64,000 nt of DNA from Pseudarthrobacter sp. (GTDB lineage: Bacteria > Actinomycetota > Actinomycetes > Actinomycetales > Micrococcaceae), in NCBI GenBank assembly GCA_031178005.1, contig JAPSJV010000004.1:62001-126000 (forward strand), read 5' to 3'. The notes under the pieces were generated by a model. It did not search any database, had not been told where the DNA came from, and was given only the letters and a program-made list of their open reading frames with translations. Made by a program: the position numbers and the translations under genes. Below, piece after piece: positions 12,990 to 64,000 of the stretch (its first letter is position 1; each line of letters starts with the position of its first letter).

Positions 12990-13979
12990 TCAGACTTGAT
13001 TAAGGATGGCGAGAGCCAAGGATTCGTCGGCCACCAGGGAGGTGAAGAGCCCTTCGCGTGCGGCGACAATTGTTTGCGAAGCCCGGTTGGTACCGAACGA
13101 CGTTGCCACTATCTCCGGAACTGCCCGGAGCTGATCAAGATCAATGCCGATGACGCGATCGTCAATGACATTGGGAATGATGTTCCCGTCTTTGCCGAAG
13201 AGCCGTCCGCTGATTTCACCTATGACGCCGGAGTCTGTGGCCAGCGCTTGTAGTTCAGGGCTGAGTGAATCGAAGACCAGCGATCCGCCGGCCCGCCACG
13301 CGCCTACGGACACCACCGCAACATCCAGCCGCTTGTACTGGTGGAGGACGGCAGCAATATCCGGCTGGAGCCGGAGCGACTGGGCTGTGCGGGCGTCAGG
13401 GACAACCAAGGGCGCGTATAGGACAAAGGCTTCGCCGTGGGAGATCTCGGCAACTCGACGAACAAGTTCGACGTTTCCTGATCCCGAGACCGCTCGGGCC
13501 AGGTGCCCTGACAGCTGGATCCAGGTACACGGCTGTAAGTGCTCAACTTGCTCAGCCATGGCCAACAGGGCTTGGCTCCAGGTGAGACCCACAGTGTTGC
13601 CGGGCCGAAGGAGGCTTTCGAGCAGGCGGGCAAGGGCGCTGCCGATGGCTTTGACGGTGTTTCCAGGGGCTGGCGAAACGACCACAACATTGCGCAGGTT
13701 GAGGGCTGCGCGCAGTTCTTCAGCCAGTTCAACATTGAGTCCGGCTGGGTCGACGACTTCGATGCGGACCAAGCCTGCTGATCTCGCCAAAGTGAGGAGC
13801 CGGGCAACCTGAAACCGACTGATCTCAAGGTCATTGGCAATGTGGACTTTTGATTGGTCGTCAAGAAAATACGCACGCGCCACTTTGGCGGCCAGTGCGA
13901 GCTCCGCCTCTTTTGACAGTGGTTCCGAGGCTTCGGAGTCCGCGCCCGGAGCGCGGGGGGGACGGCCGCGTCTCACCAT
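12990..13979 (-). CDS. SorC/DeoR-type sugar-responsive transcriptional regulator
   Basis: MVRRGRPPRAPG...ARAYFLDDQSKVHIANDLEISRFQVARLLTLARSAGLVRIEV; sugar-binding C-terminal domain. Confidence 0.85.
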   Translation of the reverse strand: MVRRGRPPRAPGADSEASEPLSKEAELALAAKVARAYFLDDQSKVHIANDLEISRFQVARLLTLARSAGLVRIEVVDPAGLNVELAEELRAALNLRNVVVVSPAPGNTVKAIGSALARLLESLLRPGNTVGLTWSQALLAMAEQVEHLQPCTWIQLSGHLARAVSGSGNVELVRRVAEISHGEAFVLYAPLVVPDARTAQSLRLQPDIAAVLHQYKRLDVAVVSVGAWRAGGSLVFDSLSPELQALATDSGVIGEISGRLFGKDGNIIPNVIDDRVIGIDLDQLRAVPEIVATSFGTNRASQTIVAAREGLFTSLVADESLALAILNQV

Positions 13980-14166
13980 GCCCAGACCCCTTTCGGACGT
14001 TCGATCTTCGGCCTCCAACGTTACATTAAGAGCTTGATACCCCTGCGCCCCGACCTGCGAGAACTGTTGCCAAAGTGACGCAAGAGGTCCACTCTGAAAG
14101 TGATCACGCCGTGGCCGGGGAGCCTGGGCACGGTTCCCCAGGTAACCGTGAGCTGTGGAGGTCAAG

Positions 14167-15657
14167 ATGAGTGCTACGTCTGATCAGGTCTTCGACGTCA
14201 CCCCCGACAAAAATCATGAACCCGCCCTGAAACGGGTCCTCGGCCCCAAGCTCCTGCTGCTGTTTATTGTGGGCGATATCCTGGGCGCCGGCGTGTATGC
14301 AGTCACAGGAACCATGGCCGGCACGGTGGGCGGCATCGTCTGGCTCCCGTTCCTGCTGGCGTTTGTGGTGGCAACGCTGACGGCGTTCTCCTACCTCGAG
14401 CTGGTGACCCAGTATCCGCAGGCGGCCGGAGCGGCACTGTATACGCACAAGGCCTTCGGCATCCACTTCGTCACGTTCCTGGTGGCGTTCGCCGTCGTCT
14501 GTTCAGGTATTACCAGCGCCTCCACCTCGGCGAACGTCCTGGCGCAGAACTTCTTCGGCGGACTCGAGATCAACGGCTGGATGGGGGAGGTGCAGCCTGG
14601 GGTGATTACCGCCGTCGCCATGGGATTTATGATCCTGCTGGCCGTGATCAACCTTCGCGGCGTAGGGGAGAGCGTGAAGTTCAACGTGGTCCTCACCATG
14701 GTGGAGGTGGTGGCGCTGTGCATCGTGATCGGCGTCGGGTTCTTTGTGATGGCACAAGGCACCGGCAACCCCGGTGAAATCTTCGTTTTCAACGACTCCC
14801 AGGACAAGGGCTTGTTCCTGGCCGTCACGGCCGCCACGTCCATCGCGTTCTTTGCCATGGTGGGCTTCGAGGATTCCGTGAACATGGTGGAGGAGACGAA
14901 GAATCCGGAGAAAATCTTCCCGCGGACCATGCTGACCGGCCTGGGAATCGCGGTGATCCTGTACATGCTGGTGGCCGTTTCGGTGGTGAGTGTCCTGTCG
15001 CCCACGGAGCTGGAGAACATCCGCGAGGCCGAAGGCGCGGCGCTCCTGGAAGTGGTGCATAAGGGCTCGCCGGACTTCCCGATCGACAGAATTTTCCCGT
15101 TCCTGGCCGTCTTCGCAGTGGCCAACACCGCGCTGATCAACATGCTGATGGCCAGCCGGCTGATTTACGGCATGGCCCGCCAGCACGTCCTGCCAACGGC
15201 GCTGGGAAAAGTCCTGCCAACCAGGCGCACGCCATGGGCCGGCATCCTGTTTTCCACCGTTCTGGCGCTGGGACTCATCTGGTACGTCAGCACCGACCCG
15301 AAGAGCAACATCGTCGCCAACCTGTCCGGCACCACGGCGTTCCTGCTCCTCTGTGTATTCACGGTGGTCAACGTGGCGTGTGTGGTCCTCCGGCGCAAGC
15401 GCGACCCCAACCGGAAAGTCTTCTTCACCTCGCCGGGCCAACTGCCGCTGCTGGCCGCCTTGCTCTGTGCTTTCCTTGCCGGCCCTTGGGTGGGACGCAA
15501 CCCGATCCAATACCAGGTGGCCGGCGGACTGATGGCCATCGGCGTGGTGCTCTGGTTCATCACCTGGCTGATCACCCGGCGCAATGCGGTTCCGGCCGAA
15601 CCCGTTGTTGAGCAGGACGCCGGCCGCGATGAGGACGTTCCGCCGCCGCCCCGCTGA
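14167..15657 (+). CDS. APC family amino acid permease
   Basis: KRVLGPKLLLLFIVGDILGAGVYAVTGTMAG...ATSIAFFAMVGFEDSVNMVEETKNPEKIFPR. Confidence 0.9.
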   Translation: MSATSDQVFDVTPDKNHEPALKRVLGPKLLLLFIVGDILGAGVYAVTGTMAGTVGGIVWLPFLLAFVVATLTAFSYLELVTQYPQAAGAALYTHKAFGIHFVTFLVAFAVVCSGITSASTSANVLAQNFFGGLEINGWMGEVQPGVITAVAMGFMILLAVINLRGVGESVKFNVVLTMVEVVALCIVIGVGFFVMAQGTGNPGEIFVFNDSQDKGLFLAVTAATSIAFFAMVGFEDSVNMVEETKNPEKIFPRTMLTGLGIAVILYMLVAVSVVSVLSPTELENIREAEGAALLEVVHKGSPDFPIDRIFPFLAVFAVANTALINMLMASRLIYGMARQHVLPTALGKVLPTRRTPWAGILFSTVLALGLIWYVSTDPKSNIVANLSGTTAFLLLCVFTVVNVACVVLRRKRDPNRKVFFTSPGQLPLLAALLCAFLAGPWVGRNPIQYQVAGGLMAIGVVLWFITWLITRRNAVPAEPVVEQDAGRDEDVPPPPR

Positions 15658-55800: not shown

Positions 55801-56823
55801 TTGGCAGGGAATGCAACCTTCCGGCACAGCAACACCGCCCTGCTCTCGGTAAGCAGTATCGAGGCCCCGAGGATCGTGAGTTCTGCGGATTTCGACCGCA
55901 GGCTGGCTCCGACCTTGCATCGGCTGAACTTCCCGCCCCGGTTGCTTGAACGCGTTGCCGGCGTAACGCACCGCCGCTGGTGGGCGCCCGGAACCGCTTT
56001 TGATGATGCTGCCACCGAGGTCGGTGCCAAAGCCCTTGCCGAGGCCGGCGTTGAAGCGGCCAACGTCGGCCTGTTGATCAACACCTCGGTGACGCGGCGC
56101 AATCTTGAACCGTCCGTTGCGGTGAAGATTCATCACGGACTGAACCTGCCGTCGTCGGCCATGAACTTTGACCTGGCCAACGCCTGCCTGGGGTTCGTGA
56201 ACGGGATGACCCTGGCCGCCAGCATGATCGACTCCGGGCAGATCGAATATGCGGTGATCGTGAACGGCGAGGATGCCGAGGTCACGCAGGAGGCCACACT
56301 GGCCCGCCTCCTGAGGCCGGAGACCACGCGGGAAGACTTCAACCGGGAATTCGCCACGCTCACCCTGGGCTCCGGAGCTGCTGCCGCCGTCCTGGGCCCG
56401 GCAGACCAGCACCCCGGAGCGCACCGGATCGTCGGCGGTGTGATGCGCGCCGGCACCGAACACCATGAGTTGTGCGTGGGCGGCATCGACGGCATGACGA
56501 CGGACACTAAGGGCCTGCTCGACGGCGGCCTGAAGCTGGTGGTCGAGGCCTGGACTGAAGCCCGGGCCGAGTGGGATTGGTCCACCATGGACCGCTACGT
56601 CACCCACCAGGTGAGCAACGCCTATACGCAGGCCATCATCGACGCCATCGACCTGGACCCCGCGAAGGTGCCCATTACGTTCCCGCATTGGGGCAATGTG
56701 GGCCCGGCGTCCCTTCCCATGACCCTCGCGGCCGAGGCGCAGTCCCTGGAAGAGGGGGACCGGGTGCTGTGCATGGGGGTCGGCTCCGGGCTGAACACCG
56801 CCATGATGGAGATCATTTGGTAA
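55801..56823 (+). CDS. oleA: 3-oxoacyl-ACP synthase III-like head-to-head condensing enzyme
   Basis: TTG start; NFDLANACLGFVNGMTLAASMIDSG (active-site Cys); FPHWGNVGPASLPMTLA; downstream oleBC and oleD. Confidence 0.9.
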   Translation: MAGNATFRHSNTALLSVSSIEAPRIVSSADFDRRLAPTLHRLNFPPRLLERVAGVTHRRWWAPGTAFDDAATEVGAKALAEAGVEAANVGLLINTSVTRRNLEPSVAVKIHHGLNLPSSAMNFDLANACLGFVNGMTLAASMIDSGQIEYAVIVNGEDAEVTQEATLARLLRPETTREDFNREFATLTLGSGAAAAVLGPADQHPGAHRIVGGVMRAGTEHHELCVGGIDGMTTDTKGLLDGGLKLVVEAWTEARAEWDWSTMDRYVTHQVSNAYTQAIIDAIDLDPAKVPITFPHWGNVGPASLPMTLAAEAQSLEEGDRVLCMGVGSGLNTAMMEIIW

Positions 56824-59573
56824 CCGCCAACTGGCCTGGCGTGGACCCGGAGTGGTCGCGGGAAATCGACGTGAAGTCAACGTCCGACGCCGATCTGCCG
56901 GGGACAGTGCGCCGCTGGCACCTGCTGGACAACGGGGACCAGCTCGCCCGCCTGGGCCTGGCTCCCGCCGGAACCCTGCTGTGCGTTCACGGAAACCCCA
57001 CCTGGTCCTACCTGTGGCGGACGCTGCTGGCCGCCGGTTCGGATCCTGCCCATCCGTGGCGGGTTGTGGCGGTGGACCAGCTGGACATGGGCTATTCGGA
57101 GCGCACTGGAACCTTCCGGCGCCTGGCAGACCGCATCAACGACCTGGGTGACCTGACGGATGCGCTGGCCCTGGCCGGGCCCGTGGTGACCGTGGGCCAC
57201 GACTGGGGCGGCGCGATCAGCCTGGGCTGGGCGCTGGCGCACCCGCAGCACCTCGCCGCAGTGGTGTTGACCAACACAGCCGTCTCCCAGCCCGCAGATT
57301 CGGCCATTCCGCCGGCCCTGCGGCTGGCCCTGCATCCCGCCGTCCACGGCTGGGGAACCACCACGACGGACGCCTTCCTTCGGGTGACGCACTCGCTGGC
57401 CCACCCGGCGTTGCCCTCCGACGTCCGCGAGGCCTACCAGGCTCCGTACCGCGGGGCCTCCCGCCGCAGCGGGGTGGGAAACTTTGTCGCGGACATCCCT
57501 GTGGACGCCGCCCACCCCAGCTTTCCTGCGCTCACCGGCATGGCGGAGGGGCTGCGCGGCTTGAAGGTACCGGCGCTGATGCTCTGGGGCCCGCGGGACC
57601 CGATCTTCTCCGACCGGTACCTCAAGGACCTGATCAACCGGCTCCCGCACGCCGATGTGCACCGCTTCGAAGGCGCCGGCCACCTTGTGGCGGAGGACCG
57701 GGACATCGCCGCGCCGATTTTCCAATGGCTTGCCGGGAACGTGGGTGCCGGAATCAGTGGTGCGGGAAACTCTGCTGACGACGACGGCGGAACCGCCAGG
57801 GAGCTCGGTGCACCACCGGACGTCCAAGGGACGGGTGAAGCAGCCGCCCTCGAGTCAACGGTATTCCGCCCGCTCTGGGACGCACTTGAAAAGCAGGCGG
57901 CAGGGCTCGCGGGCGGGGATACCGCCGTCGCGGAAATGGCGCCGGACGGCACGGTGGCCCGCTCGCTCAGCTGGCAGCAGCTGGACCGGGACATCCGCAA
58001 CCTTGCGGCGGGGCTGAGGAACGCCGGCGTCGGATCCGGCAGCCGGGTGAGCCTGATGGTTCCGCCCGGCGTGGACCTGACCGTAGCCCTTTACGCCTGC
58101 CTTCGGCTCGGTGCCGTGGTGGTGGTGGCCGACGCCGGACTGGGAACCAAGGGCCTGAGCCGCGCCGTGAAAGGCGCCACCCCTGATTTCATTATCGGCA
58201 TCGACAAGGCGCTCGCGGCGGCCTCGGTGCTCGGCTGGCCCGGACGCCGGATCAGCGTGCGGGACCTCCCACCCGCCCGCCGTCGGGTACTCGGCGTCGA
58301 ACATTCCCTGGACGCCCTGGCGCGTTCCGCTGCCGGCCGCGGTGCTCTGCAGCCGGGGGACAACCTTGACCCGGATGCCCCGGCCGCCGTGCTTTTTACG
58401 TCCGGTTCCACCGGCCCCGCCAAGGGCGTGCTGTATACGCACCGGCAGCTGGCGGCGATGAGGGACACCGTAGCGGCTACCTTCGAGATCCGGCCCGGTA
58501 CCCGGCTGGTGGCAGGTTTCGCCCCGTTTGCCTTGCTGGGTCCGGCGCTCGGAACGGTGTCGGTGACGCCGGCCATGGACGTCACCGCGCCACGCACCCT
58601 GACGGCCGGTGCGCTGGCCGACGCCGCCGCAGCCGTCAACGCCACGGTGGTCTTCGCCTCGCCGGCCGCGCTGCGCAATGTCCTTGCCACCCGTGATGGG
58701 CTGAGCGCCGCCGGGCAGGAAGCGTTGGGGCGTATCGGGTTGCTGCTGTCCGCCGGTGCGCCCGTTCCCGAACCGCTCCTGGTCGAGGTGCAGCGGCTGC
58801 TGCCCAAGGCCTCGCTCCGTACCCCGTACGGGATGACCGAGGCGCTGCCCGTCACGGACATCAGCGTGGAACAGATTCAAGCCGCCGACGCCGATGCTGC
58901 CGCCGGCACTGAATCTTCCGGCACTGAACCTCCCGCCGGCAAGGCCGGAGCAGGCAACGGCGTGTGTGTGGGGTGGCCGGTGCATGGCGCCCGCGTGGCC
59001 GTGATTCCGCTGGCGGCCGACGGCACCGCACCCGGCTCGCAACCGGTGACGGAGCCCGGCGTGACGGGCGAGATCCTGGTCAGCGCCCCGCACGTCAAGG
59101 AAACGTATGACAGGCTCTGGCTGACCCAGCGGAAGAGCTCGAGCCTGCCCGGCTGGCACCGCACCGGCGACGTGGGGCACTTCGACGCCGCCGGCAGGCT
59201 CTGGGTGGAGGGACGCCTCGCCCATGTGGTCACGGCTCCGGGCGGTGTGGTGACGCCCGTCGGCGCCGAACAGGCCATCGAACGCCTGGACGGCGTCGGG
59301 CTGGCCGCGATCACCGGCGTCGGACCGGCTGGCACCCAGGCCGTGGTCGCCGTCGTCGAGACCGTTCCGCCCGCCCGGAAGGCGGGCCCCGCCACACCGC
59401 AGCTTGCCGGGAGAGTACGCCAGGCCGCCCTTGAAGCAGGCGTTCAGGTCTCCGCTGTGCTCGCAGTCCCCACCCAGCCCACGGATATCCGGCACAACGC
59501 CAAGATCGACAGGACCCGCCTGGCCCGCTGGGCTACACGGGTGCTGGCCGGCGGCAGGCCGGGCAAACCATGA
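56817..59573 (+). CDS. oleBC: OleB-OleC fusion: alpha/beta hydrolase (haloalkane dehalogenase-like) plus AMP-dependent ligase
   Basis: GHDWGGAISLGWALAHPQ then AMP-binding AVLFTSGSTGPAKGVLYTHRQ and LRTPYGMTEALPVTD; start overlaps the oleA stop (TTG 56817 or GTG 56841). Confidence 0.9.
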   Translation: MVTANWPGVDPEWSREIDVKSTSDADLPGTVRRWHLLDNGDQLARLGLAPAGTLLCVHGNPTWSYLWRTLLAAGSDPAHPWRVVAVDQLDMGYSERTGTFRRLADRINDLGDLTDALALAGPVVTVGHDWGGAISLGWALAHPQHLAAVVLTNTAVSQPADSAIPPALRLALHPAVHGWGTTTTDAFLRVTHSLAHPALPSDVREAYQAPYRGASRRSGVGNFVADIPVDAAHPSFPALTGMAEGLRGLKVPALMLWGPRDPIFSDRYLKDLINRLPHADVHRFEGAGHLVAEDRDIAAPIFQWLAGNVGAGISGAGNSADDDGGTARELGAPPDVQGTGEAAALESTVFRPLWDALEKQAAGLAGGDTAVAEMAPDGTVARSLSWQQLDRDIRNLAAGLRNAGVGSGSRVSLMVPPGVDLTVALYACLRLGAVVVVADAGLGTKGLSRAVKGATPDFIIGIDKALAAASVLGWPGRRISVRDLPPARRRVLGVEHSLDALARSAAGRGALQPGDNLDPDAPAAVLFTSGSTGPAKGVLYTHRQLAAMRDTVAATFEIRPGTRLVAGFAPFALLGPALGTVSVTPAMDVTAPRTLTAGALADAAAAVNATVVFASPAALRNVLATRDGLSAAGQEALGRIGLLLSAGAPVPEPLLVEVQRLLPKASLRTPYGMTEALPVTDISVEQIQAADADAAAGTESSGTEPPAGKAGAGNGVCVGWPVHGARVAVIPLAADGTAPGSQPVTEPGVTGEILVSAPHVKETYDRLWLTQRKSSSLPGWHRTGDVGHFDAAGRLWVEGRLAHVVTAPGGVVTPVGAEQAIERLDGVGLAAITGVGPAGTQAVVAVVETVPPARKAGPATPQLAGRVRQAALEAGVQVSAVLAVPTQPTDIRHNAKIDRTRLARWATRVLAGGRPGKP

Positions 59574-60541
59574 AGGTCCTGGTCACCGGGGCCAGCGGGC
59601 TGCTTGGGGGAGAAGTGGCCCGGCTGCTGGTGCGCCAAGGGCACGACGTGACCACCTTCCAGCGCCGTCCGTCGGGGGTCGACGGCGCCACGGATTTCCG
59701 CGGGTCCATCACGGATGAGAAAGCCCTTGCGGAAGCCGTCGACGGCGTCGAAGGCATCATCCACCTCGCCGCGAAGGTGTCCTTCACCGGGCGGGCCGCG
59801 GAGTTTGAGCAAGTGAACGTCGAGGGGACCCGTAACCTGCTTCGTTGCGCCCGCGCGGCCGGGGTGCGGGACGTGGTGTTCGTGTCCTCCCCGTCCGTGG
59901 CGAATTCCGGCGCCGCCATCTCGGGGTTGGGCGCGGAGCCGGCGGACCCGGAGCGTGCCCACGGCGACTATTCACGCACCAAGGGCGACGCCGAGCTGCT
60001 GGCCCTGGCCGCGGACGCGCCGGAGTTCCGGGTCGCGGCGGTGCGCCCGCACGTCGTCTGGGGTCCGGGCGACACCCAACTGGTGGAGCGGGTCCTGGAC
60101 CGGGCCAGCCGCGGCCGTCTGCCACTGCTCGACGCCGGGGCGGCCCTGATCGACACCACCTACGTGGACAACGCGGCCGCGGCTATCGTCGCCGCACTGC
60201 ACCGCATGGACCACATCCATGGCAGGGCCCTGGTGGTCACTAATGGCGAGCCGCGGCCGGTGGGCGAGTTGCTGGCAGGTATCTGCGCTGCGGGTGGCGT
60301 CGCCGCGCCGTCGTGGTCCGTGCCGGGTCCGGTGGCGCGGGCGGCGGGCGCAGTGGTGGAGAAGCTGTGGACTCTGGCCGGGCGCGAAGAGGAGCCGCCG
60401 ATGACCCGGTTCCTCGCCGAGCAGCTCTCCACAGCGCATTGGTTCGACCAGCGCGAGACCCGGCAACTCCTGGACTGGACCCCCGCCGTCTCCCTTGATG
60501 AGGGACTGGCCAGGCTTGCAGAGCACTACCGGTTAGGCTAA
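59570..60541 (+). CDS. oleD: NAD-dependent epimerase/dehydratase, olefin pathway reductase
   Basis: MKVLVTGASGLLGGEVARLLVRQGHDVTTFQRRPSG; overlaps the oleBC stop. Confidence 0.9.
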   Translation: MKVLVTGASGLLGGEVARLLVRQGHDVTTFQRRPSGVDGATDFRGSITDEKALAEAVDGVEGIIHLAAKVSFTGRAAEFEQVNVEGTRNLLRCARAAGVRDVVFVSSPSVANSGAAISGLGAEPADPERAHGDYSRTKGDAELLALAADAPEFRVAAVRPHVVWGPGDTQLVERVLDRASRGRLPLLDAGAALIDTTYVDNAAAAIVAALHRMDHIHGRALVVTNGEPRPVGELLAGICAAGGVAAPSWSVPGPVARAAGAVVEKLWTLAGREEEPPMTRFLAEQLSTAHWFDQRETRQLLDWTPAVSLDEGLARLAEHYRLG

Positions 60542-60543
60542 CC

Positions 60544-60687
60544 GGCCCTCAGACCTCCGGTGGTTGAGCTTGTCGAAACCCCTCGGCGCCCGGCCCTCAG
60601 ACCTCTGGTGGTTGAGCTTGTCGAAACCCCTCGGCGCCAGGCCCTCAGACCTCTGGTGGTTGAGCTTGTCGAAACCCCTCGGCGCCC
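60544..60687. repeat. 3 x 48-bp tandem repeat
   Basis: Unit ggccctcagacctctggtggttgagcttgtcgaaacccctcggcgcc(c/a), starts at 60544, 60592 and 60640. Confidence 0.95.
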
Positions 60688-60854
60688 GGCCCGTCGAACA
60701 ACGCACCGGTGCTGCTCTGCGGCACCACCACGTGGACGGCGTTGCGCTGGATGGTGAAGTCGGTGGTTGTGCTGGTGGCGATTTCGCCGTCGAGGTTTAC
60801 CGGCAGTGACTTTGCCTTCCGCGATAGTGGCACACGCCTCGGCAAGGTTGTTCG
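60678..60854 (-). pseudogene. decayed, internally deleted copy of the diacylglycerol kinase 3' region
   Basis: 60678-60808 matches 62490-62620 (128/131); 60809-60854 matches 63067-63112 (about 42/46); the intervening ~446 bp of the kinase is missing and the frame is broken. Confidence 0.88.
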
Positions 60855-61035
60855 CTTCCTGGGCCCTTGTCGATTTCTTTCCCGCGACTAATGGCAAGGA
60901 AATATCAGGGGCGCCAGCTCGATTATGCGTTCTATTGTCGGAGCTACAGTCTAGGTTTTATTTAGCAGGTGCCGAGGCCCGCATTTTGAGACCGACTCCG
61001 CGATCGGCGCCGCAAGAGGGGACAGGGAATAAAAA

Positions 61036-62382
61036 ATGGACGAAGTGCGCAAGCTTGCCTTGGAGGTAGCCCGCTGCGGCAATATCACCCATGCGCGCAA
61101 GGATGCGGCCCATCCCTGCCATGAGATTGTGTCGGTGCAGAAGCCGGATCCCGCGACGTTCCATGTCCCCGAGGCGTGGGCGGGAGCAATCGATACGGCC
61201 AGGGTTCTGTACATATCATCGAATCCGTCGATCGGTGACATTGCTGAGGGGCAGGATCCGGCAACCGAAGAGTTGTATCCGAAGGAATCCGACTCTGACG
61301 AGTTTATCCAGGACTTTATCGTTAACCGGTTTAATCCTGACTCGGGATATGCGGATCTCAACGGTTCTTACAGACAAGTCAGCGGACAGCCTTCTACCAA
61401 AAAGGTGAGCTTCTGGACAAACATGAGGAACCGAAGCATTGAACTCCTAGGTCATGATGCCCATCCAAATGAGTCCTACGCCATGACTGAAGTGGTGCAC
61501 TGCAAGTCGAAAAAGGACAGGATGGGCGTGAAAGCCGCACGATCGGCATGCTCTGACCTCTACTTGGACCGAATCATTGCACTTTCCCCTGCGCGTGTGC
61601 TGGTGGTGGTGGGAGTGCAGGCGGGGGATGCCCTTAAGACAAGGTGGGACCTTCCACAGCAGTTTGGAATCATGAAGAAGGAAGCTTCCGGTACCGCATC
61701 GATTGTTGCTTCCGAAGCGGATTCCATGGTGCTGCGCGAAATCGCCGGGCGGGAACGAACGGTCGTGTTCCTTCCCCACCCGAACAGCCAAGGAACTAGA
61801 AAGTTCTTTTCGGATAACTACCCGGAGAACATGCTGAACCTTCGCCGAGCTGCTGCCCCGGTGGCTGTAATTGGAACGGCGGCGGTCGTGGCGGCGACTG
61901 TTGCTTATGGAGAGTATTTGAGCCATGGGGCTTACGTTTGCCAGCCCAACAGGTACTTTCGTCCCAGTACCACCCACTTCGCGTTCTACTCTGACAGGCA
62001 GATTCAACCTCACGTCGCCGAAATCGAAGAAATCTTCAAAGACGTCGTGTTTACCTCGGAAGAAGCTGCGAGTTGGACAGCTTCTCAGGATAGGTCTGGG
62101 CAACGCCTAGGAGTGGTGATTGCCTCGTTCTTGGCGGCGGGGTTACGGGAGCATGGTGAACGGTACGACGTGATTTTGCTGAGTCAGGAAAACGAAGCCT
62201 CGACCCTTCAGCTGACTTCTCCCGTCATCAACGACCTCAAGAATTCCCAGGGCCGTGCCGTGGCCTTTACACAAGGTCAGCGCTATGTTGATTTGGAAGT
62301 TCTTACGGGTGGAATCAGCCTCACTTCAAAGATCGCCCGGCTCAGCGGCTGGAACGAGATGCATCCCGACGAGGATGCTTAA
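61036..62382 (+). CDS. uracil-DNA glycosylase superfamily-like N-terminal domain fused to an unknown C-terminal domain
   Basis: TARVLYISSNPSIGD; FWTNMRNRSIELLG; AMTEVVHCKSKKDRMGVKAARSACSDLYLDRIIALSPARVLVVVGVQAGDAL; VVFLPHPNSQGTRKFF; uninterrupted 448 aa. Confidence 0.6.
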   Translation: MDEVRKLALEVARCGNITHARKDAAHPCHEIVSVQKPDPATFHVPEAWAGAIDTARVLYISSNPSIGDIAEGQDPATEELYPKESDSDEFIQDFIVNRFNPDSGYADLNGSYRQVSGQPSTKKVSFWTNMRNRSIELLGHDAHPNESYAMTEVVHCKSKKDRMGVKAARSACSDLYLDRIIALSPARVLVVVGVQAGDALKTRWDLPQQFGIMKKEASGTASIVASEADSMVLREIAGRERTVVFLPHPNSQGTRKFFSDNYPENMLNLRRAAAPVAVIGTAAVVAATVAYGEYLSHGAYVCQPNRYFRPSTTHFAFYSDRQIQPHVAEIEEIFKDVVFTSEEAASWTASQDRSGQRLGVVIASFLAAGLREHGERYDVILLSQENEASTLQLTSPVINDLKNSQGRAVAFTQGQRYVDLEVLTGGISLTSKIARLSGWNEMHPDEDA

Positions 62383-62471: not shown

Positions 62472-63437
62472 TCAAACGGGCGGCCAGTTCTCGGCGCCCG
62501 GCCCGTCGAACAACGCGCCGGTGCTGCTCTGCGGCACCACCACGTGGACGGCGTTGCGCTGGATGGTGAAGTCGGTGGCGGTGCTGGTGGCGATTTCGCC
62601 GTCGAGGTTTACCGGCAGTGGATTGTCGGTGACCAGCCGGACGCTGCGGCTGGTCAGGTGGTGCACGCGGTCGTGTTCAATGAAGCTTCCGTCCTTGAGC
62701 AGCCGGGCGATGTTCACGTGCTCGCGGAGCGGCCCGGCCAGGATCGCGTAGATGTCGAGGGTGTGGTCGTCGATCCCGGCGGTGGGGGAGACCGTGTTGC
62801 CGCCGCCGTAGTGCCGGCCGTTGCCCACGGCCACCTGCAGCAGGTCCTCGAGCTCCAGCGGCTGGTGGTCGCCGTCCGGGAACTCGAGCCGGGCCCGAAA
62901 CGGCTTGTGCTTGGCATACGCCCCAAGCGTGGCGATGCTGTAGGCCAGCGGCCCGATGTACCGCTTCAGGCGGGGGCTCAGGGCCTCGGTCACAGCGACG
63001 GACAGGCCCACGGATGCGACGTTGAGGAACGGCTCACCATTGGCCCGGCCCAGGTCGATGTCCACCACTTTGCCTTCCGCGACGGTGGCGCACGCCTCGG
63101 CAAGGTTGCTCGGGATCTCCAGCGTGCGGGCGAAGTCGTTGGCGGTTCCCAGCGGCAGGACGCCGAGCGTCACCTCCGTGCCGGCCAGGCGGCCGGCGGC
63201 GTAGGACATCGTCCCGTCGCCGCCGCCCACAACCAGCAGGTCGTGCCCGTCCGCAAACACCCGGTCAAGCGTCCCGGTGAGGTCCGCCCCGGAGTGCACG
63301 TGGTGCACGGCGGAGACAGGCACGCCTGCGTTGCGCATGGTGTCCACCGCAAGTTCGTGGGGCGCGCCGCGGCGTGAACCGGCGTTGATCACAACGGCGG
63401 CAGAGCGGGCGTTCCGGGCAGCTTTCATTTGAGCCAT
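62472..63437 (-). CDS. diacylglycerol kinase family lipid kinase (YegS-like)
   Basis: AVVINAGSRRGAPHELAVDTMRNAG...LLVVGGGDGTMSYAAGRLAGTEVTLGVLPLGTANDFARTLEIP; C-terminal PLPVNLDGEIATSTATDFTI. Confidence 0.92.
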   Translation of the reverse strand: MAQMKAARNARSAAVVINAGSRRGAPHELAVDTMRNAGVPVSAVHHVHSGADLTGTLDRVFADGHDLLVVGGGDGTMSYAAGRLAGTEVTLGVLPLGTANDFARTLEIPSNLAEACATVAEGKVVDIDLGRANGEPFLNVASVGLSVAVTEALSPRLKRYIGPLAYSIATLGAYAKHKPFRARLEFPDGDHQPLELEDLLQVAVGNGRHYGGGNTVSPTAGIDDHTLDIYAILAGPLREHVNIARLLKDGSFIEHDRVHHLTSRSVRLVTDNPLPVNLDGEIATSTATDFTIQRNAVHVVVPQSSTGALFDGPGAENWPPV

Positions 63438-63616: not shown

Positions 63617-64000
63617 CTACGTCCTGTACTGAGTCCACGCAGGAGCGTCAGGATTCAACATCTCAGCTAGTTCAAAAAATGCGTCATCGTCCGCCTCCAA
63701 GTACCCCTGGGGATCCAAGAAATAAATGGCCCGTCTGTATGCCTCGGCGAACGTCCCAAACATGGAGGAGACTGACGTGTACTCCACGAGGTGTTGGGCC
63801 TCACCCAGCATGAAGTTGGAGACCTGCCCGTAAGTGGCGGAGTTTCGAGCGCAATCCACAGCGTAAAAATCACCACCTCCGTTGGCCAGCAAAGGTAGCC
63901 AATCGGGACTCCATCTCGAGTTTTTCTTGAAGGTCCTGTAGTTGTTAAGCGTCTCGTCAAGGTTCGGAAAATGGAAGCCGGGCACGATTTGGATATCGTC
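63617..64000 (-). CDS. SMI1/KNR4 (SUKH) family protein, partial at right edge
   Basis: DDIQIVPGFHFPNLDETLNNYRTFKKNSRWSPDWLPLLANGGGDFYAVDCARNSATYGQVSNFM. Confidence 0.75.
   Translation of the reverse strand, partial: DDIQIVPGFHFPNLDETLNNYRTFKKNSRWSPDWLPLLANGGGDFYAVDCARNSATYGQVSNFMLGEAQHLVEYTSVSSMFGTFAEAYRRAIYFLDPQGYLEADDDAFFELAEMLNPDAPAWTQYRT

Follow-up and report, generated by a model that had tools for sequence, protein, structure and literature searches.

A candidate anti-phage protein, probably acquired horizontally, that joins a UDG-superfamily half to a C-terminal module shared with nuclease effectors

The gene at 61036..62382 on the plus strand of the window (the whole stretch of 64,000 nucleotides that was analysed) is an ATG-started intact open frame for a 448-aa two-domain protein (P0001), which in our judgement is probably a horizontally acquired anti-phage protein, in which an Fe-S-type glycosylase excising a modified cytosine-like base would be combined with a mobile C-terminal module for sensing or targeting. 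According to this reading, the gene would have arrived by horizontal transfer, and its N-terminal half, a putative [4Fe-4S]-type UDG-superfamily DNA glycosylase with predicted catalysis, probably acts on a modified cytosine-like base of phage DNA, which it would flip out and excise. The excision would leave abasic sites at which replication stalls, by analogy with Brig1. The C-terminal half may be a mobile module by which infection is sensed or the effector is guided to its target; elsewhere, in bacteria and archaea, the same module carries HEPN RNases or PD-(D/E)XK nucleases. We infer the intact cluster, the catalysis, the modified-cytosine substrate, the sensing role and defence itself from the comparisons given below. 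A sequence-only reading had described the first half as UDG-superfamily-like with possible Fe-S cysteines and the second as unknown, and had suggested a link to defence. These elements hold, but the reading has to be amended insofar as the base-reading Asn is a Glu, the second half is shared with other proteins, and the proximal cysteines are spaced differently.

Residues 1-277 (61036..61866, plus strand) belong to the UDG superfamily, an assignment that we regard as established on the basis of profile matches, an AlphaFold model and Foldseek. By itself, the full protein yields a weak family-4 UDG match (E 0.014). A scan of genome contigs, with one genome per species, retrieved 28 loci related to the UDG half, which span Actinomycetota, Chloroflexota, Acidobacteriota, Pseudomonadota, Thermotogota, Aquificota, and Vulcanimicrobiota as well as a euryarchaeal MAG. 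Conservation was counted over the 25 aligned UDG-half members (24 without the window protein). Within this set, Pfam UDG matches 12 homologues (best 3.9e-8), UDG_fam4 matches eight (best 2.8e-6), and antiviral_Brig1 (NF047634) weakly matches two (best E 0.0022). The PDB profile search returned the UDGs of S. tokodaii (4zbx, 2.3e-4) and Thermus (1ui0, 6.1e-4). The AlphaFold (AF2) model, computed with the homologue alignment, reaches a pLDDT of ~95 over residues 1-277, and Foldseek of this model places family-4 UDGs on top (4zbx, 2.1e-6), followed by UdgX, TDG, and SMUG1. The UDG-like first half proposed earlier is confirmed by these matches, which are independent of the reasoning that had led to it.

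Two variations were noticed among the relatives. In L020, a second, different UDG-like protein (13644-14849; VGINPSDAEF, recognized by eye) is encoded close to the UDG-half gene, with few genes in between. In Phycicoccus (L022, 8621-10822, and L077), the UDG half is situated C-terminally in a 733-aa frame, after an unrelated region of ~450 aa, and this frame could be a genuine fusion or result from an overlooked start.

All motifs and cysteines quoted in the sequence-only reading are present. Motif 1, SSNPS at residues 61-65 (61216..61230), includes Asn63 and is invariant in S62, N63, and P64 (25/25), most of TEVVHCKS at residues 151-158 is invariant in the 25 homologues, and in motif 2, HPN at residues 248-250 (61777..61785), His is found in 22/25 and Pro in 24/25. 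Glu152 (61489..61491), the predicted base-edge reader, is invariant in 25/25, as are the predicted cluster ligands 1 to 4, i.e., Cys14 (61075..61077), Cys28 of HPC (61117..61119), Cys156 of VVHC (61501..61503), and Cys172 of RSAC (61549..61551), all of these features lying on the plus strand. With the four Cys, the SNP of motif 1, and most of TEVVHCKS unchanged across 25 homologues of several phyla, the observation of motifs and cysteines goes beyond chance. C86 of 4zbx is the aligned counterpart of Cys156, and 15 residues separate Cys156 from Cys172, as is the case for C86 and C102 of the S. tokodaii UDG; in the 24 relatives the distance is 14. The gap between Cys14 and Cys28 amounts to 13 residues and ranges from 12 to 19 across the family. 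Of the earlier suggestion of Fe-S cysteines, the four invariant positions and the distal family-4 spacing stand, but the proximal pair is not C-x2-C, so that a [4Fe-4S]-type cluster on the four cysteines is likely rather than proven.

Glu152 aligns with N82 of the S. tokodaii UDG and with a Glu of the Brig1-family protein encoded at L058. In family-4 UDGs, N3/O4 of uracil is read by this Asn (N82 in S. tokodaii, N80 in Tth). In case of Brig1, E147 is predicted to bond the Watson-Crick face of the base, the exchanges E147A and E147Q affect T4 immunity, and E147 is needed for defence (PMC11078745). As far as the alignment goes, a Glu in place of the base-reading Asn, as in Brig1, points away from uracil, and the substrate of the UDG half would be a Brig-like modified cytosine-type base. 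The UDG half may work like an Fe-S relative of Brig1, with both the substrate and the cluster being predictions.

Judged by its sequence, the window protein falls outside family 4. The score to TIGR00758 (family-4 UDG) is 15.1 bits, far under the curated cut-off of 125.3 bits, motif 1 is SSNPS as compared to GE(A/G)PG in family-4 UDGs (PMC10359453) or GEQPG in the family-4 UDG/UdgX group, the base-reading position holds Glu152 instead of Asn (Tth N80), and the proximal Cys spacing is 12-19 in the window-protein family versus 2 in family 4. The fold, the distal Cys spacing, and the HP of motif 2 are common to the window protein and family-4 UDGs (1ui0, 4zbx) or UdgX. With Asn in an xxNPx motif 1, the protein is similar to TDG/MUG and SMUG1 (families 2 and 3), which are weaker structural matches of the UDG half in Foldseek. 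TDG/MUG and SMUG1 are not known to have the four-Cys cluster. These comparisons bear on ordinary repair, i.e., a divergent family-4-like glycosylase for uracil or another deaminated base with the C-terminal module as DNA-binding appendage. Family-4 UDGs are indeed the closest solved folds, the Cys pattern is near that of family 4, and some UDG-half homologues are located among ordinary genes. We nevertheless consider this explanation unlikely in view of the uracil-reading Asn replaced by Glu in 25/25 homologues, a motif 1 other than GE(A/G)PG, the patchy distribution, the foreign base composition, and the association with cas, McrBC, BREX, and CBASS genes.

Either half was matched in 15 out of 396 genomes of the order, a patchy distribution that does not agree with a housekeeping role with universal conservation, which had been named earlier as one of the findings that would speak against a defence enzyme. 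Patchiness, foreign composition, and defence neighbours together argue against a housekeeping role. A phage or viral origin was considered as well and rejected, since neither 50,697 phage records nor IMG/VR contained a match.

In thermophiles, several type I-B-like CRISPR loci include a standalone UDG-half gene. In L038 (8345-13206), the gene is situated between cas5-like and cas3, on the same strand as the genes for Cas7, the Cas5-like protein, and Cas3, and in L033 (1165-8237), L036 (5219-13505), and L041 (9839-17791) it is located just upstream of cas8-cas7-cas5-cas3-like genes. The cas-linked UDG-half genes fall in two separate tree branches. Ordinary neighbours were observed at several UDG-half loci (L026, L029, L030, and L035). 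The UDG-half gene of L028 is flanked by NrtR, ARPP-1, ADP-ribosylglycohydrolase, and NERD helicase genes, and a NERD helicase was also recognized by eye beside the UDG-half gene of L024. Considering the gene content around L028, it could be speculated that the UDG half acts on bases that carry ADP-ribose or another toxin mark, and that this glycosylase serves as an antitoxin or in repair by removing the lesion that a DNA ADP-ribosyltransferase has set. This is quite improbable, as no ADP-ribosyltransferase was recognized by eye beside the gene in the window or in L028, and the L028 arrangement was not seen in most loci.

For residues 281-434 (61876..62337, plus strand), searches against Pfam (also at E 10), NCBIfam, PADLOC, PHROGs, and PDB profiles were empty or gave chance-level results. 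On the sequence comparisons, this region is a conserved domain matching no described family, and HMMs also detect it at the C-terminal end of PD-(D/E)XK and Abi_2/HEPN proteins. An HMM of the module built without the window protein finds the window protein at E 3.1e-46, the best of 200 shuffles reaching E 110. The HMM from PD-(D/E)XK fusions only and that from Abi fusions only find it at 6.2e-48 and 3e-23, respectively, and the Abi-only and nuclease-only HMMs detect each other's proteins with values of at most 2.3e-15 (E 110 or worse for shuffled controls). The C-terminal module of Abi_2/HEPN proteins (AbiD, PD-T4-5) and of PD-(D/E)XK proteins is, with this shuffle control, homologous to residues 281-434. 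The second half was rightly described as belonging to no known family, but it is not unique, the module being common to several nuclease effectors. AF2 with the single sequence did not predict a fold for the module (pLDDT 36.6). An hhalign comparison with one protein recognized by eye as EVE-like gave no match, so that a PUA/EVE-like fold is a guess and is not claimed here.

In all intact genes found, the module is located C-terminally, behind differing N-terminal domains. These are an Abi_2/HEPN domain with conserved R-N-R-x-x-A-H (RNRxAH) and an additional PADLOC match to PD-T4-5, a PD-(D/E)XK-like nuclease with conserved PD...ExK (read from the alignment), a NucS-like PD-(D/E)XK type in the frameshifted gene of L054 (by eye), and, in the window protein, the UDG half. 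While the Abi_2/HEPN and PD-(D/E)XK relatives carry an RNase or nuclease N-terminus, the window protein has a glycosylase-type UDG half, and Pfam gives no match to a HEPN or nuclease N-terminal domain in it. The fusion of UDG half and module was seen only in the window genome among all loci found. Since the partners mostly keep their nuclease active sites, the N-terminus can be regarded as the effector slot and the module as the constant input. The reverse arrangement, with the UDG half as a catalytically dead reader of bases or DNA (a sensor) and the module as effector or partner-binding part, would be in line with the Ser that replaces the motif-1 Gly/Glu and with the module as the constant part of every architecture. 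We hold it to be hardly probable, given the invariant N63 and E152, the nearly invariant H248, and the nuclease active sites kept by most other N-terminal partners.

Among the module proteins, those of L003, L082, L084, L085, and L086, all of one genus, have a nuclease-like N-terminus seemingly without the PD...ExK residues; in L003 the gene follows an SF1-type helicase gene. The Abi_2 and module gene of L012 (1-2298) is split by an inserted transposase and is situated near restriction-modification-like genes.

In case of the module genes, a PD-(D/E)XK fusion of L015 (2886-16414) lies inside a BREX-5 locus of a haloarchaeal plasmid, between brxB/large-protein genes and pglX. Further module genes occur with McrC (L071, 7.2e-53), adjoining a CBASS cyclase (L067, 7.4e-32, with a Cap5-type effector at 1.4e-119), near DISARM-type DrmB (L072, 1e-73), and near an OLD/Gaj-like nuclease (L068). 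The suspected link to defence is found in the surroundings of both halves, the module genes lying near BREX-5, McrBC, CBASS, DrmB, and OLD/Gaj-like genes and UDG-half genes near cas genes. These neighbours, recorded locus by locus, support a defence role but do not prove it, because several loci are ordinary. Neither a BREX survey nor a McrBC survey mentions glycosylases or UDGs. On the contig of the window gene itself, a Mza-like system (MzaC 2.7e-59, MzaB 3.5e-21) starts ~8 kb downstream. Beyond the window, this Mza-like region (L048, 8604-18813, contig C40) comprises a cytosine methyltransferase, two HATPase-type proteins, a further protein, and a Z1-type protein.

The GC content is 51-57% across the gene patch versus ~70% in the flanking DNA, and GC3 is 0.635 in the first and 0.605 in the second half of the gene, versus 0.85 in the oleD-like and diacylglycerol-kinase-like genes on either side. 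A 131-nt diacylglycerol-kinase-like piece is present on both sides of the gene (60678-60808 and 62490-62620) with 98% identity. Foreign GC and GC3 together with the flanking kinase repeat make the gene look acquired by horizontal transfer as one unit. An assembly chimera was judged unlikely, because GC3 is alike in both halves and the flanking copies differ, their identity being 98% rather than 100%. A purine-rich, Shine-Dalgarno-like GAGGGGACAGGG (61016..61027, plus strand), read from the sequence, is located 8-20 nt upstream of the ATG; a promoter scan gave no more than expected by chance. An accidental fusion or decaying cargo devoid of selected function is very improbable, for although the fusion was found once and broken relatives exist (L010, L012, L045, and L054), the frame is intact and preceded by the Shine-Dalgarno-like site, the halves are alike in GC3, and the key residues are all kept.

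Several features of the surrounding DNA were recorded in addition. The gene is bracketed by partial, near-identical diacylglycerol-kinase-like duplicates (60678-60854 and 62490-63112), possibly the trace of an insertion. Upstream, the stretch 55801-60541 looks by eye like an oleABCD olefin-biosynthesis cluster (a thiolase-like gene, an epimerase, and an alpha/beta hydrolase in one frame with an AMP-ligase), and just downstream of its oleD-like gene a 53-nt repeat containing GGTGGTTGAGCTTGTCGAAACCCC occurs three times at 48-nt spacing (60544-60692); a similar repeat translates in frames near 4 kb of L048. A second low-GC gene on the minus strand, reaching from 63617-64000 of the window to position 2208 of L048, encodes a protein of 196 aa that is SMI1/KNR4 (SUKH)-like by eye, possibly an immunity protein.

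Going beyond the probable anti-phage glycosylase, we put forward more tentatively, and with somewhat less than even confidence, that residues 281-434 constitute a hitherto undescribed module for targeting or for the sensing of infection, which is combined with chemically unrelated effectors (base excision, RNase, and two kinds of DNase), often in BREX, McrBC, CBASS, and DISARM-type loci, and that the UDG half is the founder of an Fe-S branch within the Brig-type glycosylases, in which some members would operate alongside type I-B CRISPR-Cas. In the open-access papers that were searched, no description of this UDG branch or of the module was found. If the proposal is true, a phylum-spanning Fe-S-type branch linked to CRISPR-Cas and ADP-ribose genes would widen the class of anti-phage glycosylases and supply new enzymes for modified bases. 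The module is absent from domain libraries and raises the question of which one signal can switch on or direct enzymes as different as a glycosylase, an RNase, and two DNases.

Few anti-phage DNA glycosylases have been described to date, namely Brig1-3. Brig1 is an anti-phage alpha-glucosyl-5hmC DNA glycosylase (NCBIfam NF047634) and, like the window protein, belongs to the UDG superfamily. By the NF047634 cut-off, the window protein falls outside the Brig1 family: it is not listed at E 0.1 and does not reach the curated 230 bits, as compared to 312 bits for L058. Both hhalign and an HMM comparison with this single Brig1-family protein were not significant, and L058 was undetected by the profile of the 24 other homologues. 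Unlike the window protein, Brig1 has no C-terminal module, and L058 lacks the four Fe-S-type cysteines. The parallel to Brig1, drawn earlier as an analogy, nevertheless extends to the level of motifs and to the weak profile match of two homologues given above. The multiple alignment registers E46, N63-P64, E152, and PEP(W/F)xG on L058, with SSNPS opposite GLNPG, so that the NP of motif 1 and the PEP(W/F)xG stretch are common to both proteins. An ADP-ribosylglycohydrolase gene is reported as a neighbour of brig1 and brig3 and is likewise found at the UDG-half locus L028, many members of both groups occur in Actinobacteria, and Brig1 and the window protein both have a Glu at the base-reading position.
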